From Scytonematopsis contorta HA4267-MV1 (GTDB lineage: Bacteria > Cyanobacteriota > Cyanobacteriia > Cyanobacteriales > Nostocaceae): DNA of 64,000 bases. Position numbers and translations under genes: made by a program. The notes under the pieces were generated by a model. It searched no databases. It was not told the DNA's origin and saw only the letters and a list, made by a program, of their open reading frames with translations. The DNA is taken from positions 1 to 64,000 of the forward strand of contig JAHHIC010000055.1 in NCBI GenBank assembly GCA_019359035.1, in the 5' to 3' direction. Positions 4,571-10,582 of this stretch are shown in pieces (within the stretch, counting starts at the first letter, position 1; every line of letters starts with the position of its first letter).

Positions 4571-5884
4571 TTAAGTTGTATACTCAGCGTTAATTTTCAC
4601 GTAGTCGTAACTTAAATCGCAACCCCAAGCTTTACCTGAAGCATGACCGTTACCAATATTGACTGCAATTATCAGCGGATTATCTACACGTTGAGTCATG
4701 GTTGTGTTTCTATCTATTGACAAATCATTACTCATATTGGTTGCGACAGCGTTGGTAGGCAAAGAAGACCCTTGTGCTATATTTTTCAGATACGTACTTG
4801 CCGCAGCCCTGTCAAAAACTTGGGGTTGACCATTCTCCATCAGCAAGAAATCCCCTAGTTGAATGCGTAAATTCTCTTGCTCAAAATGTACTCCTGCTCG
4901 TCCTGCTGCTGCTGCTATTCTTCCCCAGTTAGGGTCACGTCCAAATATTGCCGATTTAACTAACGATGAACCTGCAATAGTTTTTGCTATTTGACGCGCT
5001 CCTTGTTCATTCGCTGCACCAGTTACTTGCACTTCTATCAAGCAAGTTGCACCTTCTCCGTCACGAGCAATCGCTTTCGCTAAATGTTGACAGACTTCAG
5101 TCAACATTGCTTCTAATTTATCAGCTTCATACCCACTTTCTGTAATTGCTGGGGTGCGTGATTGTCCATTTGCTAAAGCGATTAAACTATCATTAGTACT
5201 GGTGTCTCCATCTACTGTAATCGAATTAAAACTTCTGTCCCCAGCTCTACTTAACATTTGTTGCCACAATGAAGGAGACACTGCTGCATCGCAAGTCACA
5301 AAGGCTAGCATCGTTGCCATATTTGGATGAATCATTCCCGAACCTTTACCTATTCCCCCTATCCGTACAGGACGGTCACCAAAAGTTGTCTCTAAGGCTA
5401 TCGATTTTTTAACTAAATCTGTGGTGATAATTGCTCCTGCTGCTTCATCCGACCCATTTTGTGATAGAGCGGCTACTAATTTGGGTATCCCATTGGACAT
5501 AGCATCCATTTTTATTCGTTGTCCAATAACACCCGTGGAAGCTAAAAGTATTGATTCAGCTGGAATATTTAATTCCTTAGCTAATAATTCAGCACTTTTG
5601 AGAGCATCACGCATACCTTGCTCTCCCGTGGCTGCGTTCGCTTGTCCTGCGTTACAAAGAATTGCACGAGCGCTGTTTTTCGCTTGCAACCTTTGACGAC
5701 AATAGTCCACACATGCTGCTCTCACTTGGCTAATCGTAAATACACCTGCAGCAATCGCTTCCACATCCGACACAATCAAAGCTAAATCTTTAGAACCAGA
5801 AGGCTTCAAACCCGCTGCAATACCTGCTGCTTGATATCCTCTAGGTGCTGTAATGCCACCTGCTACTACTTGCCAGTCTGCCAT
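4571..5884 (-). CDS. argJ: Bifunctional ornithine acetyltransferase/N-acetylglutamate synthase
   Basis: Transfers the acetyl group from N-acetylornithine to glutamate in the cyclic arginine pathway, and may also acetylate glutamate from acetyl-CoA. The family's self-cleavage site is intact: KGSGMIHPNMATML, where the chain is cut before Thr to give alpha and beta subunits with Thr as nucleophile. GVFTISQVRAACVDYC near the N terminus, DPNWGRIAAAAGRAG and the C-terminal GCDLSYDYVKINAEYTT are typical. ATG at 5884 (MADWQVVAGGITAPRGYQ) fits the family better than the GTG at 5899, giving 437 aa. It stands alone between hemH and the small-RNA array, which is transcribed toward it. Confidence 0.96.
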   Translation of the reverse strand: MADWQVVAGGITAPRGYQAAGIAAGLKPSGSKDLALIVSDVEAIAAGVFTISQVRAACVDYCRQRLQAKNSARAILCNAGQANAATGEQGMRDALKSAELLAKELNIPAESILLASTGVIGQRIKMDAMSNGIPKLVAALSQNGSDEAAGAIITTDLVKKSIALETTFGDRPVRIGGIGKGSGMIHPNMATMLAFVTCDAAVSPSLWQQMLSRAGDRSFNSITVDGDTSTNDSLIALANGQSRTPAITESGYEADKLEAMLTEVCQHLAKAIARDGEGATCLIEVQVTGAANEQGARQIAKTIAGSSLVKSAIFGRDPNWGRIAAAAGRAGVHFEQENLRIQLGDFLLMENGQPQVFDRAAASTYLKNIAQGSSLPTNAVATNMSNDLSIDRNTTMTQRVDNPLIIAVNIGNGHASGKAWGCDLSYDYVKINAEYTT

Positions 5885-6037
5885 TTTGATTTTTCCCACA
5901 AAATTTTGGCTCGACTGGCGATTATATCAATTCATTGTCACCACAAGCGTGGTAATTTGTTATTGGTAACTTTATAAAAGATACTTTATCACTATAGTAA
6001 ATATGCTCTAGTAAATATTGCTTAGAGAATAATTGCT

Positions 6038-6092
6038 AAAAAAAATAGAGAGCCACTTGGGTAGCTCTCCGGATCATCAGGGTGCATCTACT
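6038..6092 (-). ncRNA. Small RNA copy 1 of the tandem array
   Basis: -10 TATACT at 6104-6099, -35 TTGCCC at 6126-6121 with a 16-base spacer and extended TG. Predicted start at A6092; the stem closes with a C-G pair, then TATTTTTTTT. Confidence 0.75.
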
Positions 6093-6179
6093 GAAATTAG
6101 TATAGCATTTTTAGACTGAGGGGCAATACCCCCTGCTATATTTTTTAAAAGTTTTTTCACCAGCCAAGAGAAAATACCC

Positions 6180-6233
6180 AAAAAAATAGAGAGTCACTTG
6201 GGTAACTCTCCGGATCATCAGGGTGCATCTACT
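6180..6233 (-). ncRNA. Small RNA copy 2 of the tandem array
   Basis: -10 TATACT at 6245-6240 and predicted start at 6233. The variable stem pair is U-A instead of the C-G of copy 1. Confidence 0.75.
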
Positions 6234-6320
6234 GAAATTAGTATAGCATTTTTAGGCTGAGGGGCAATACCCCCTGCTATATTTTTTAAAAGTTTTTTCA
6301 CCAGCCAAGAGAAAATACCC

Positions 6321-6374
6321 AAAAAAATAGAGAGTCACTTGGGTAACTCTCCGAATCATCAGGGTGCATCTACT
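6321..6374 (-). ncRNA. Small RNA copy 3 of the tandem array
   Basis: -10 TATACT at 6386-6381 and predicted start at 6374. Variable stem pair U-A; the base before the stem differs (TTCGGA instead of TCCGGA). Confidence 0.75.
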
Positions 6375-6461
6375 GAAATTAGTATAGCATTTTTAGACTG
6401 AGGGGCAATACCCCCTGCTATATTTTTTAAAAGTTTTTTCACCAGCCAAGAGAAAATACCC

Positions 6462-6515
6462 AAAAAAATAGAGAGCCACTTGGGTAGCTCTCCGAATCAT
6501 CAGGGTGCATCTACT
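6462..6515 (-). ncRNA. Small RNA copy 4 of the tandem array
   Basis: -10 TATACT at 6527-6522, -35 TTGCCC at 6549-6544, predicted start at 6515. Variable stem pair C-G. Confidence 0.75.
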
Positions 6516-6597
6516 GAAATTAGTATAGCATTTTTAGACTGAGGGGCAATACCCCCCACTAAGTTTTTTTTTAAATCTGAATGTGGGAAAAATACCC

Positions 6598-6651
6598 AAA
6601 AAAAAGGAGAGTCACTTGGGTAACTCTCCGGATCATCAGGGTGCATCTACT
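6598..6651 (-). ncRNA. Small RNA copy 5 of the tandem array
   Basis: -10 TATACT at 6663-6658, predicted start at 6651. Stem GGAGAGT/ACTCTCC is one pair longer at its base than in copies 1-4, followed by TTTTTTTT. Confidence 0.75.
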
Positions 6652-6768
6652 GAAATTAGTATATCATTTTTAGCTTGAGGGGCAATACCCCCTACTAAGT
6701 TTTTTTTTAAGTTATTGTTTCTTAAGTTATTTCTGAAAATTTTTGTGACTGGAGTAGAGGAAATACCC

Positions 6769-6823
6769 AAAAAAAATGGAGAGCCACTTGGGTAACTCTC
6801 CGGATCATCAGGGTGCATCTACT
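6769..6823 (-). ncRNA. Small RNA copy 6 of the tandem array
   Basis: -10 TATACT at 6835-6830, predicted start at 6823. The variable stem pair is U-G, an intermediate between the C-G and U-A forms. Confidence 0.75.
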
Positions 6824-6994
6824 GGAATTAGTATATCATTTTTAGTTTGAGGGGCAATACCCCTCACCTATATTTTGAAAAATGTTTTAGCAAAATCTTT
6901 TTGTTTGTTTCAAAAAAAATAAGAATACATTTGCTCGCTCTTGTCATATAGGGTTTTGAAGCCTATTCCCAGTAAGTAATTGGTCAATATAAAC

Positions 6995-7045
6995 AAAAAG
7001 GAGAGCCACTTACGTCGCTCTCCAGGTTATCAGGGTGCATCTACT
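6995..7045 (-). ncRNA. Small RNA copy 7 of the tandem array (diverged)
   Basis: -10 TATAAT at 7057-7052, predicted start at 7045. The loop differs (GACGTAAGTG), but the GGAGAGC/GCTCTCC stem, the 5' core GTAGATGCACCCTGAT and the -35 dyad are kept. The T-run is TTTTT. Confidence 0.7.
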
Positions 7046-7099
7046 AACCACATTATAACTGAATTTTTGTCTTGTGGGGTCATACCCCCTAAAGACATT

Positions 7100-7215
7100 T
7101 GAAATATGTAGCGACTTGGATATTCGTAGGTTGGGTTGTTCGCGCAGCGTGCCCATAAAGGCATGGCTTTAGGAAACCCAACCGAAACGTTGTATTTGTT
7201 GGGTTATTTTTTATC
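7100..7215. repeat. Dispersed GTAGGTTGGGTT / GCGCAGCGTGCC palindromic repeat
   Basis: Inserted between small-RNA copies 7 and 8: GTAGGTTGGGTT, CGCGCAGCGTGCC and AAACCCAACC pieces. Related mosaics are at about 10935-11045, 16460-16560 and 46130-46165. They look like common cyanobacterial dispersed repeats and may explain the 242-bp spacing here. Confidence 0.6.
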
Positions 7216-7233
7216 GGATGCTACGCGAAGCAC

Positions 7234-7287
7234 AAAAAAAAGGAGAGCCACTTGGGCAGCTCTCCAGATCATCAGGGTGCATCTACT
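7234..7287 (-). ncRNA. Small RNA copy 8 of the tandem array (gatB-proximal)
   Basis: -10 TATAAT at 7299-7294, predicted start at 7287. Stem GGAGAGC/GCTCTCC with eight T after it. First unit after gatB; its terminator may also serve gatB read-through. Confidence 0.7.
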
Positions 7288-7458
7288 TAGCAGATTATAA
7301 CATCTTTGTGATGGGGGTTCACACCCCTTTTTTTGTAACTTTTTATGAAATTTTTGTAAAGAAATTATAAGTTAAATATAAGGTATATATTTACTTTTTA
7401 ATATCTTTACATGTTGGTCGCGTTTGTAGATTGACTCTGTGCAACTTCTCTACAAAAC

Positions 7459-8934
7459 TTAACCATTGAGCTTCTTCTCGATTAATTGGTTAGTGAGTTT
7501 AGGCTCGGCACGTTTATTGGTCTTTTTCAGAACTTGTCCTACAAAGAAGCCTTTGAGATTAGTGTTACCTTTGCGAAATTTTTCTAGTTCTTTAGGGTTA
7601 GCAGCGATAACTTCGTCGATGATAGATTCCAATATTGCTGGGTCACTAATTAGCTCAGAACCAGCAAAGGCTTCTTCAGGGCTAACACCTTTAAGCAAAT
7701 CGGGTAACTTTTCCTTTGCGATCGCGTTGCCAATTTTTCCGCTTTCGATGCGAGTAATAAGGTCAGCGAGATTGGTAGGGGTAAGACCGATATCAGTGAT
7801 GCTAACCTTATTTTTGTTAAGATATGCGGCAATATCTTGAGTAATCCAGTTAGCAGCAGCTTTAGCAGAAGCACCCCTCTCAATTACAGTTTCAAAATAT
7901 TTTGCCACCGAAGTTTCTTCAGTTAAAACTCGTGCATCGTAAGCAGAAAGTCCCAATTCATTTTCATAACGATAGCGTTTTTGTGCAGGAAGTTCAGGGA
8001 TTTGAGAAAGCCAATTTTCCAGTTGTTTTTCAGAAACTTCAATAGGACTCAAATCGGGTTCAGGGAAGTAGCGATAATCGCTAGAGCCTTCCTTTTTCCG
8101 CATACTGACAGTACGTTGCGAACCTTCTTCCCAGAGACGAGTTTCTTGTACAATTTTCTCACCAGCTTCGATGGCTGCTATTTGACGTTCAATCTCGTGT
8201 TCAATCGCTCTTTGAATAGCGTTGAAAGAGTTCATATTTTTAATTTCAACTTTAACGCCAAATTCCTTTTGCCCAACCGGACGTACAGAAATATTGACAT
8301 CACAACGAAGCGAACCTTCTTGCATATTTCCGTCGCTTACACCTAAATAGCGTACAATACGACGTAATTCTTCTGCATATTCAGCAGCTTCTTGGCCAGA
8401 ACGTAAATCTGGTTCCGAAACAATTTCCACCAAAGGTATACCAGCACGATTGTAATCTACCAAAGAATAAGTAGACCCAGAAAGACGCTCGCTACCAGCG
8501 TGAACTAACTTACCTGCATCCTCTTCCATATGCAAACGAGTGATACCAATGCGTTTGCGCTTCGGATTACCATCTTTATCAATCAACTCTATTTCTAACC
8601 AGCCATGTTCAGCAATGGGCAAGTCGTACTGAGAAATTTGATAATTTTTAGGTAAGTCAGGATAAAAATATTGTTTGCGGTCAAATTTGCTATATTTTGC
8701 GATTTCGCAATTTAGTGCTAAACCAGCTTTAACTGCATATTCTAGGACTTTTTCGTTGAGTACAGGTAACACCCCAGGTAAACCCATACAAACAGGGTCA
8801 ATATTAGTGTTAGGGTCAGCACCAAACTCAGTGGAGCTATTAGAGAAAATTTTGGTATTTGTACTTAGCTGACAGTGGGTCTCTAAACCGATAATAGCTT
8901 CGTACTCAGTTTTCACTCTCAGTGCGGAAGTCAT
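7459..8934 (-). CDS. gatB: Asp-tRNA(Asn)/Glu-tRNA(Gln) amidotransferase subunit B
   Basis: With GatA and GatC, converts misacylated Glu-tRNA(Gln), and Asp-tRNA(Asn) where needed, to Gln-tRNA and Asn-tRNA; cyanobacteria lack glutaminyl-tRNA synthetase and depend on it. The protein is 491 aa, the usual length. The N-terminal YEAIIGLETHCQLSTNTKIF, VCMGLPGVLPVLN, RKQYFYPDLPKNYQISQYD and RLHMEEDAGKLVH are GatB signatures and form the cradle domain with the kinase-like active site. The C-terminal ~150 residues (from about 340) are the helical YqeY-like tail that grips the tRNA elbow, ending NLKGFFVGQVLKKTNKRAEPKL. ATG at 8934 is clear. gatA and gatC are not adjacent, so the gene is monocistronic here. 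Confidence 0.97.
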   Translation of the reverse strand: MTSALRVKTEYEAIIGLETHCQLSTNTKIFSNSSTEFGADPNTNIDPVCMGLPGVLPVLNEKVLEYAVKAGLALNCEIAKYSKFDRKQYFYPDLPKNYQISQYDLPIAEHGWLEIELIDKDGNPKRKRIGITRLHMEEDAGKLVHAGSERLSGSTYSLVDYNRAGIPLVEIVSEPDLRSGQEAAEYAEELRRIVRYLGVSDGNMQEGSLRCDVNISVRPVGQKEFGVKVEIKNMNSFNAIQRAIEHEIERQIAAIEAGEKIVQETRLWEEGSQRTVSMRKKEGSSDYRYFPEPDLSPIEVSEKQLENWLSQIPELPAQKRYRYENELGLSAYDARVLTEETSVAKYFETVIERGASAKAAANWITQDIAAYLNKNKVSITDIGLTPTNLADLITRIESGKIGNAIAKEKLPDLLKGVSPEEAFAGSELISDPAILESIIDEVIAANPKELEKFRKGNTNLKGFFVGQVLKKTNKRAEPKLTNQLIEKKLNG

Positions 8935-9178: not shown

Positions 9179-9508
9179 TTACATACGTGAGAGAGCAGCT
9201 ACTTTACTAAGCTTACTGGTCTCCAATCCTTTTAATTCATCGAGCTTTAGCCAACCTTCTTGAACTAACCTTGCGAGAACAAAGATAAGCACAGAATATC
9301 TATAATCATACTTACCATCTATCTCGTGTCTCCTTGCACTTAAGAAATCGTGTAAACTCCACATATCCTCAAGCTTTACGATAGAAGTTGCGCTATCACG
9401 AACTTGGGTTATTAAGGCGTTTATTTCTCTTTCATAAGCTTTTTTGAAGGCTTCTTTTGCTACCAATTGTTCCGTTTCAGTCCACTCTGCTTCACTCACT
9501 TGCATCAT
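9179..9508 (-). CDS. frp: Fluorescence recovery protein
   Basis: Binds the photoactivated red form of orange carotenoid protein, speeds its return to the orange form and detaches it from the phycobilisome, so that full antenna capacity is restored after strong light. The 109-aa protein is the family's size. Residues reported as important in FRP are in register: Trp50, His53, Asp54 and Arg60 in the segment DMWSLHDFLSARRHEIDGKY. The rest is helical with a compact C-terminal head (LVQEGWLKLDELKGL). The start ATG at 9508 is followed by a second ATG. It follows ocp on the same strand after about 120 bp, the usual ocp-frp order, so it may be partly co-transcribed with it. Confidence 0.95.
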   Translation of the reverse strand: MMQVSEAEWTETEQLVAKEAFKKAYEREINALITQVRDSATSIVKLEDMWSLHDFLSARRHEIDGKYDYRYSVLIFVLARLVQEGWLKLDELKGLETSKLSKVAALSRM

Positions 9509-9628
9509 TAAAACCTGAATTTTTAATGGTAATTTATTTTACCCAATTTTGCCACTGGTTCTAGGATAATTGAGCGCTCTGCACTTGCATAGCGCTCTAG
9601 TAATTTTTTACATTTTACTAAATTGAAT

Positions 9629-10582
9629 CTAGCGAGCTAGGTTCAAAAGTTCTTTGGGAGATGCTAACAAGTCAATTGCCACAAAGAAAATTTTGTTATC
9701 AGGACCAATCAGGAATCTCCAAGCCATATTCATACCAACACTGGCACCGAACCAAGGAGTTTGTACTTTACCAGTAACTTTTATTTGGGTATAGCCATCA
9801 TCAGCAGGTTCTTCGACACCTCGTTCTGGTATTAGCTTCAGATTTTGACAATCTTCTCTGAAGAATTTCAATACAGCTTCCTTACCAACAATAGGTCTTT
9901 GGAAAGGAGGTTGCAGAGCTCCATCAGGTGCGAATAGCTCAATTAGCGCATCAAAGTCATTCGCGTTCAAGTTATTCATATAACTTGTAACTGTCGCGTT
10001 TTGAAGTCCTTCGATGGTGACATTAGTACGTTTTGATACTTCTTGAGGAGGAACAAAAGGTTCAGCAATAGTCTTGGAACCACCTTTAGTATCAAATCCC
10101 ATATCAACCACGGCATTGCGTAATACCGTAATTTGTTGACCTTGGTCTAAAGTTGTTATCGCGTTCAATACTGCTGTGGCATTTGCGGAAAGCTGGTATC
10201 CTTCTGGAATAGGAGCAACAGTTCCATCTTCCATCCATTCGCCTAACTGATACCAGAAACCTAACTTAATATTCGCAGACCAGGAACCATAGGTTCTGCA
10301 AATAGGTGTGTCAGCACGATTGGCTAAATCACACATAACTTGCATTTGTTCCTTAAAGTCCATCTTCTTAATCTGGTCCATTGTCGATTGGGCAAATTGC
10401 ATACTAGCCGCTCCAGGAGCTGCAACTGTAATTGTTTTACCCATTTCCAGATAAGCAAACCAAATCAATGCAAGTTGGTCTTCCGCACTCAGTTGATTAA
10501 ATCTCGCAATTGTAGCAGGTACGACATCAGCTGCTAGAGTGTTAGGGAAAATATTACGGGCTGAATCGATGGTAAACGGCAT
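9629..10582 (-). CDS. ocp: Orange carotenoid protein (OCP1 type)
   Basis: Water-soluble, ketocarotenoid-binding blue-light sensor that quenches phycobilisome excitation. At 317 aa it matches the classic OCP length. The N-terminal helical domain (about 1-165) and C-terminal NTF2-like domain (about 195-317) are complete. Carotenoid-contacting residues are present: Trp41, Trp110, Tyr201 and Trp288; the interface residues Asn104 and Trp277 are also kept. Arg155 is present, but its salt-bridge partner Glu244 of the well-studied Synechocystis protein is Asp here, a conservative change. With frp just downstream, I assign the OCP1 class. A dyad-bearing promoter lies upstream (10672-10703). Confidence 0.97.
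   Translation of the reverse strand: MPFTIDSARNIFPNTLAADVVPATIARFNQLSAEDQLALIWFAYLEMGKTITVAAPGAASMQFAQSTMDQIKKMDFKEQMQVMCDLANRADTPICRTYGSWSANIKLGFWYQLGEWMEDGTVAPIPEGYQLSANATAVLNAITTLDQGQQITVLRNAVVDMGFDTKGGSKTIAEPFVPPQEVSKRTNVTIEGLQNATVTSYMNNLNANDFDALIELFAPDGALQPPFQRPIVGKEAVLKFFREDCQNLKLIPERGVEEPADDGYTQIKVTGKVQTPWFGASVGMNMAWRFLIGPDNKIFFVAIDLLASPKELLNLAR

Follow-up and report, generated by a model that had tools for sequence, protein, structure and literature searches.

What are the eight tandem small RNA (sRNA) units that lie between argJ and gatB in the cyanobacterium Scytonematopsis contorta HA4267-MV1, and which regulator might control them? The stretch analysed, called the window in the following, comprises 64,000 nucleotides (nt) (contig JAHHIC010000055.1, positions 1 to 64,000), and the array occupies positions 6038-7330 on its minus strand. 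An initial annotation had taken the array either for a relative of NsiR1 that has moved or for a different array-encoded sRNA family. NsiR1 is an sRNA regulator of nitrogen-fixing cells and is described as HetR-dependent and heterocyst-specific, and HetR is the master regulator. The reading favoured here, with a probability of about 0.63, is that the array represents, in eight copies, a second lineage of the NsiR1 superfamily that is controlled by HetR and called class 2 in this text; this lineage is best read as older than heterocysts.

The array is flanked by argJ (4571-5899) downstream and gatB (7459-8934) upstream, both also on the minus strand, named by NCBIfam and Pfam, and recognised by locus comparison as the usual neighbours. 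The units lie at 6039-6092, 6180-6233, 6321-6374, 6462-6515, 6598-6651, 6770-6823, 6992-7045 and 7234-7287, the second number of each pair being the +1 position; unit 8 is nearest to gatB, and unit 7 is divergent, with GATAACCTGG 3' of the core. All eight begin with AGTAGATGCACCCTGAT without a mismatch, all have a -10 box at -12 to -7, which is TATACT in units 1-6 (6099-6104 in unit 1) and TATAAT in units 7 and 8, and all end in a terminator hairpin with a GGAGAGYYACCC...GRCTCTCC-like stem followed by a T-run, which confirms the layout described in the initial annotation. According to folding, the product of a unit is about 50 nt long and consists of a mostly unpaired 5' part of about 22 nt and the terminator hairpin, which has 10 pairs (9 in unit 7) and z-scores of -2.2 to -3.0 in the six units folded (1, 2, 4, 6, 7 and 8). 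A 68-nt block occurs in eight copies, which exceeds the chance expectation, and units 1-4 lie within three overlapping 262-nt copies of 94-96% identity that follow each other in 141-bp steps. These units are therefore recent duplicates, and the stem changes among them represent few events; the pair in question is, as annotated, C-G in units 1, 4, 7 and 8, U-A in units 2, 3 and 5, and U-G in unit 6. Units 7 and 8, which diverge most, are separated by a mobile-repeat-like stretch (7126-7232) with an inverted short sequence, GTTGGGTT...AACCCAAC.

No Rfam family matches the window at the gathering threshold. At a lax threshold, all eight units score 31.0-34.7 bits for NsiR1 (RF02399), for which the curated cut-off is 39, so that all of them stay below it in the covariance-model comparison proposed earlier. 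The 16-nt 5' core of NsiR1, GTAGATGCACCCTGAT, is exactly present in every unit, and together with the sub-threshold scores this bears out the claimed relationship. Like NsiR1 of Nostoc PCC 7120, class 2 combines this core with a length of about 50-60 nt, tandem copies with a promoter and a terminator each, as realised in the argJ-gatB array, and an occurrence in hetR-bearing genomes. The same genome also has an NsiR1 array beside hetF, for which a search had been suggested: contig C57 carries 22 recognisable units, mostly GGTAGATGCACCCTGATAAC, next to a hetF gene on the other strand (NCBIfam HetF and Pfam CHAT, a partial match since the fetched stretch cuts the gene). Most of these units carry TCCGGA/TCCTGA boxes, and the eight that were scored reach 45.7-69.6 bits for RF02399. 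Three solo NsiR1-type copies on contigs C29, C36 and C39 have DIF-type boxes (TCCGGA/TCCCGGA) and 40.0-49.6 bits. Unlike the NsiR1 units on C57, class 2 has a GGAGAG..CUCUCC terminator stem, which is replaced by other stems in C57, an A instead of a G at +1, a HetR-type palindrome instead of the DIF1 box, and a place between argJ and gatB instead of at hetF. As already noted in the initial annotation, none of the eight units has a DIF1 (TCCGGA-type) -35 box, and hetF does not adjoin the array. Class 2 would work like NsiR1, yet it stays below the NsiR1 cut-off, lacks the NsiR1 promoter and lies at another locus, and the data support its assignment to a separate lineage of the superfamily that is distinguished by terminator, promoter and usual place. 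Near-identical copies with a common seed are also known from other multicopy sibling sRNAs of bacteria, but two lineages that have one seed and different promoter types set this case apart from those siblings (PMC9045159). No description of class 2 is among the matches listed from the open-access literature searched, and supplementary tables, a possible place of copies from PCC 7120, lay beyond that search. The 51-nt RNA 4547237r of PCC 7120 (PMC4734099) was considered as a class-2 RNA and dropped, as nothing connects the two.

The place between argJ and gatB is common to many genomes. A scan of named genomes with a class-2 pattern gave at least 117 stretches; the pattern demands both the core and GGAGAG, which partly accounts for the conservation of the core and the pairing of helix 1. 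Among the matches listed, argJ and/or gatB are present in 101 of 117 stretches, with the nearest gene end no more than 1.5 kb from the unit except in a single case, and wherever both genes are present (49 stretches) the unit lies between them; neither gene is found within the tile (at most 8 kb) in 16. That this NsiR1 relative "has moved" is thus not supported, as the NsiR1 array adjoins hetF in the same genome and the gatB/argJ place is kept in most others. A class-2 model, R1, was built from 48 units (63 of 121 distinct unit sequences had been chosen, and 48 of these were used, two of them trimmed by the last base) and applied to 388 genomes of the taxonomic class, with E<=0.001 counted as a match. 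It matches in 195 genomes and in 93 of 160 genera, and the highest unit count is the eight of the genome that contains the window. Arrays are an exception in class 2, and the array has been amplified in this genome; of the suggested different array-encoded family, what stands is a lineage set apart by terminator, promoter and place, but not arrays as its hallmark. The genera among the matches listed include the filamentous Symplocastrum, Microcoleus, Microseira, Coleofasciculus, Limnofasciculus, Argonema and Phormidium, which form no heterocysts (lineages were looked up for three of the seven), and Gloeocapsopsis (Chroococcidiopsidales) and a metagenome-assembled genome of the Chroococcidiopsidaceae also carry class 2. 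In one genome (G240, locus L293), a unit lies beside a flavin mononucleotide (FMN)-reductase-like gene, not beside gatB or argJ, and such a gene is also found about 3 kb from a solo NsiR1-type copy in the S. contorta genome (L032), both named from sequence only.

Outside the family of the window, eight NsiR1 loci above the cut-off were compared (L371, L375, L378, L379 and L381-L384), and hetF lies in the fetched stretch at four of them (L371, L379, L381 and L382), while no hetF match is present at any of the 19 loci of NsiR1 type or similar among L251-L270. Most NsiR1-type units at L251-L270 and at those four loci have DIF1-like TCCGGA/TCCTGA boxes. Both lineages meet at a further locus outside the family (L324, G411:C407, 2569-6477), where gatB is followed by class 2, then by an NsiR1-type unit in the opposite orientation and last by hetF (NCBIfam HetF), which is a possible ancestral arrangement.

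The compensatory stem changes had been taken to argue for selection on RNA structure. The changes exist, but covariation over the 48 units of the model is mixed and weak: 92.2% of cells are paired (3 of 500 shuffles as high), the covariation score is 0.220 (9 of 500), and 11 cells are changed on both sides (19 of 500), whereas the number of pairs changed on both sides (3) and that of further pair types (11) are reached by 278 and 220 of 500 shuffles, respectively; moreover, according to a warning of the tool, related sequences can exceed such shuffles without any structure. The best interpretation of the hairpin is that of a conserved terminator.

The key to class 2 is the dyad around the -35 region, because this dyad matches the recognition sequence of HetR. 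Over 177 distinct class-2 units, the upstream logo reads GGGT nnn R CCC nn CA at -39 to -25, followed by TGnTATACT, and the palindrome GGGTnnnRCCCnnCA, centred near -34, encloses the -35 box proposed in the initial annotation. The dyad thus holds, but TTGCCC as the -35 element is confined to units 1-6. In these, a pattern scan finds the box as GGGTATTGCCCCTCA (6117-6131, 6258-6272, 6399-6413, 6540-6554, 6676-6690 and 6848-6862, all on the minus strand like those that follow); in unit 7 it is GGGTATGACCCCACA (7073-7087) and lies 3 bp further upstream, and in unit 8 the sequence has the variant GGGGTGTGAACCCC (7314-7327). The core GGGN5CCC is exact in units 1-7, and unit 8 has a spacer that is one base longer. 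Published HetR sites are GAGGGGTCTAACCCCTC at hetP and GGGTCTAgCCCagCA at hetZ, and in electrophoretic mobility shift assays the GGGN5CCC core was indispensable for HetR (PMC4192349, PMC4649674). The class-2 box shares with both sites this core, the T after GGG, the R before CCC and the one-sided CA two bases after CCC, and it is thus, as far as the letters go, a match to the published recognition sequence; unlike at hetP and hetZ, it drives an sRNA.

The box is exact in 112 of 199 class-2 units, and 103 of these are centred at -34. If one base of register shift is allowed, it is exact in all 15 units of the named filamentous non-heterocystous loci, in neither of the two named unicellular units (L132, L144), in six of the eight window units (in unit 7 it lies three bases upstream, in unit 8 the spacer is longer) and in 88 of the 174 others, which are mostly from Nostocales and of which 163 have at most one mismatch; shuffled upstream regions gave no exact box and 0.4% at up to one mismatch. 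The stringent palindrome GGGGTGWCACCCC occurs 18 times in 19 genomes, and at 12 of these sites a class-2 unit follows immediately downstream (11 cases seen in the sequence, one deduced from the coordinates); of the remaining ones examined, one is in a class-2 intergenic region and four are elsewhere. At one locus (L296, G398), the intergenic region of the class-2 box contains a second perfect GGGGTGWCACCCC palindrome, which has no unit and lies at a distance of 63 bp from that box. The 15-mer of unit 7, GGGTATGACCCCACA, recurs once in the S. contorta genome (contig C59, 4802-4816). This site sits between an ATP-binding cassette (ABC)-exporter gene, which we take to be HetC-like, and a HlyD-type/HetP-family pair. 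A HetR peak between hetC and hetP has been listed at the corresponding position in PCC 7120 (PMC4192349, Table 1).

Class 2 and hetR occur together. The S. contorta genome has hetR itself (contig C49, E 3.4e-79), and among the 388 genomes hetR (PF03574, E<=1e-20) is present in 194: 184 genomes have both, 11 only the sRNA, 10 only hetR and 183 neither. Nine of the 195 sRNA genomes match R1 only at E 1e-5 to 1e-3 and may represent NsiR1 cross-hits or chance; at the stricter E<=1e-5 the numbers are 177, 9, 17 and 185. Three of the 11 genomes with the sRNA only are explained, by a hetR fragment at a contig end (G522), by an NsiR1-type hit (G447) and by a chance hit (G263) at the end of what is presumably an EF-Tu gene. 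Three others (G253, G468 and G473, 99-100% complete) have class-2 units without hetR, and these units have no box. NsiR1 behaves alike: over-cut-off matches are found in 201 of the 388 genomes, 192 with and 9 without hetR, while 2 hetR genomes lack such a match and 185 have neither; only these matches were counted, and a sub-cut-off match also arose in the Escherichia coli control. In all 194 genomes with hetR, at least one of the two lineages is represented, NsiR1 being counted only above its cut-off. The DNA-contact residues of HetR, R62, H69, E71, K73, R74 and K76 (PMC4649674, numbering matched by us), are kept in all 18 readable HetR proteins, one with K73R, and two further loci were unreadable by the motif.

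Several observations weigh against the favoured reading. One half-site is often decayed in the mostly Nostocales group, where 86 of 174 boxes are not exact, and across whole genomes the box pattern shows no enrichment relative to its reversed control, neither as GGGGTGWCACCCC in the 19 genomes (18 versus 20, 12 of the latter in one genome) nor as GGGTNNNNCCCNNCA in the S. contorta genome (38 versus 30), where seven of the 38 lie within the array. Exact boxes are kept without a hetR match in five genomes (G222, G509, G579, G563 and G308, which are 99%, 94%, 95%, 70% and 62% complete), and the co-occurrence tables ignore shared ancestry and thus show co-inheritance, not many independent events. 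Neither argJ nor gatB is named in the paper on HetR chromatin immunoprecipitation sequencing, in which genes appear as locus tags that were left unmapped (PMC4192349). The likely hetZ of S. contorta (L419) has no hetZ-type box within 795 bp, the published hetZ box occurs at 11 places of this genome at up to two mismatches without being beside a gene recognised as hetZ, and HetZ-family loci outside the family of the window have no hetZ-type box within about 900 bp, five of them having a bare GGGN5CCC; as hetZ boxes are missing there, no known HetR target in those genomes confirms the box. Finally, argJ and gatB are both absent from the tile at 7 of the 12 named non-heterocystous loci, the other 5 having one or both, and a convincing target of class 2 was found neither among core matches nor in the HetP-family and hetR 5' regions.

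Some of these points would also fit a palindrome that is read by another regulator co-inherited with hetR in filamentous cyanobacteria, such as a HetZ-family protein or some other factor. Co-occurrence cannot separate hetR from genes confined to the same lineages, HetZ-family genes are found in all 14 sRNA-bearing genomes searched, half of the mostly Nostocales boxes are imperfect, boxes persist in the five genomes without a hetR match, and the likely hetZ of S. contorta has no such box. This explanation is nevertheless rather unlikely, as the box fits the HetR consensus including the one-sided CA, as the site of unit 7 is identical to one upstream of a HetP-family gene in the same genome, and as the box is absent in the hetR-less G253, G468 and G473 as well as in the unicellular L132 and L144.

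The other explanations concern the units themselves and carry far less weight. A common core, the tandem layout and sub-threshold RF02399 matches would be expected if, in this genome, an ordinary NsiR1 array had been copied away from hetF and had acquired another location and promoter, but this reading is already contradicted by scores below the family cut-off in all units, by the different terminator and promoter, by like units beside argJ and/or gatB in 101 of the 117 stretches from other genomes, and by the presence of both kinds near each other in a distant genome (L324); it is very improbable. Hardly more credible is that the repeats are untranscribed relics of promoters and terminators spread by duplication: units 1-4 are indeed recent duplicates, but matches to the RNA part span 93 of 160 genera, with the promoter logo kept alongside in 177 distinct units, and in Limnospira PCC 8005 a 57-nt NsiR1-like RNA, of unchecked class membership, is an annotated and radiation-responsive transcript (PMC8400943). 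Least credible is that the units encode tiny peptides (MHPDD...) from an almost leaderless start instead of an sRNA. The units do have an ATG at +6, and in 131 of 199 of them no stop codon interrupts this frame over the 75 nt examined, yet the amino acid at codon 6 varies (L, S, P, R or W), the frame ends at many lengths and is shifted by loop indels, the wobble positions of the core are invariant (partly since the search pattern fixed them), and 5 nt are too short for a Shine-Dalgarno sequence.

If the array is thus read as eight HetR-controlled class-2 units, each unit would start at an extended -10 promoter, which is TGnTATACT in the logo of the family, and the palindrome centred at -34 would stand in for the -35 region. 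HetR probably binds this palindrome and would thereby control transcription. Repression is favoured over activation, if only by a narrow lean, because the box lies about one helical turn nearer to the -10 box than in hetZ of relatives and overlaps the -35 region: in class 2 there are 27 nt from GGG to -10, and at hetZ of three relatives (L406, L407 and L410) there are 38 nt, with a hetZ -10 box that we assigned and that fits the start at -425 (PMC3610870). The product would be an RNA of about 50 nt whose first 22 nt are mostly unpaired and are followed by the hairpin of a Rho-independent terminator, and the unpaired part would bear the antisense seed GUAGAUGCACCCUGAU, common to NsiR1. The eight copies may allow a graded dose of this RNA, as suggested in the initial annotation. 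By analogy with NsiR1, the class-2 RNA may act on mRNAs through this seed, pairing with their translation-initiation regions and blocking them. Known seed pairing of NsiR1 involves the mRNAs of hetF and alr3234 (PMC9045159).

For class 2, the core matches 19 places outside the sRNA copies of the S. contorta genome at up to three mismatches, and none of the 12 inspected could be clearly assigned to the start of an mRNA; with the 5' regions of three HetP-family genes, the duplexes were not above background. The 5' region of its hetR, about 75 nt before the gene (L288, contig C49), pairs with the first 18 nt of the sRNA at -22.4 kcal/mol, a value that 1.1% of background windows reach, and the site overlaps a TATACT box; across 18 hetR loci this signal is slight, and the site is a lead only.

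Elsewhere in the window, genes for a fluorescence recovery protein (Pfam FRP) and an orange carotenoid protein (Pfam Carot_N and NTF2) lie beyond gatB (9179-10582), and at the window edge (47-1312) there is a serine-recombinase gene with XisF as the nearest NCBIfam model, well under its cut-off.

NsiR1 carries the same seed under DIF1 promoters, and the DIF1-type promoters of hetR, patS and patX are reportedly HetZ-dependent. The two lineages may thus represent a direct and an indirect line from HetR to one seed. Tentatively, and with somewhat more doubt than confidence, class 2 can be regarded as the ancestral direct output of HetR, in which case the hetR-sRNA module would have arisen with filamentous cyanobacteria before heterocysts, and NsiR1 would be its sibling under DIF1/HetZ beside hetF. 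This is considered because every hetR-bearing genome among the 388 has a match to class 2, to NsiR1 above its cut-off, or to both, and because single NsiR1-type units beside a HetF gene exist outside the family of the window, including the order at L324. Class 2 is a small candidate target of HetR, an sRNA with a HetR-type box that usually occupies one locus and is nearly always accompanied by hetR. Nearly every searched genome with hetR harbours relatives of it, also in kinds that never form heterocysts, and NsiR1, for which heterocyst specificity has been described, may be part of an older family of two lineages with one seed and two types of developmental promoters.

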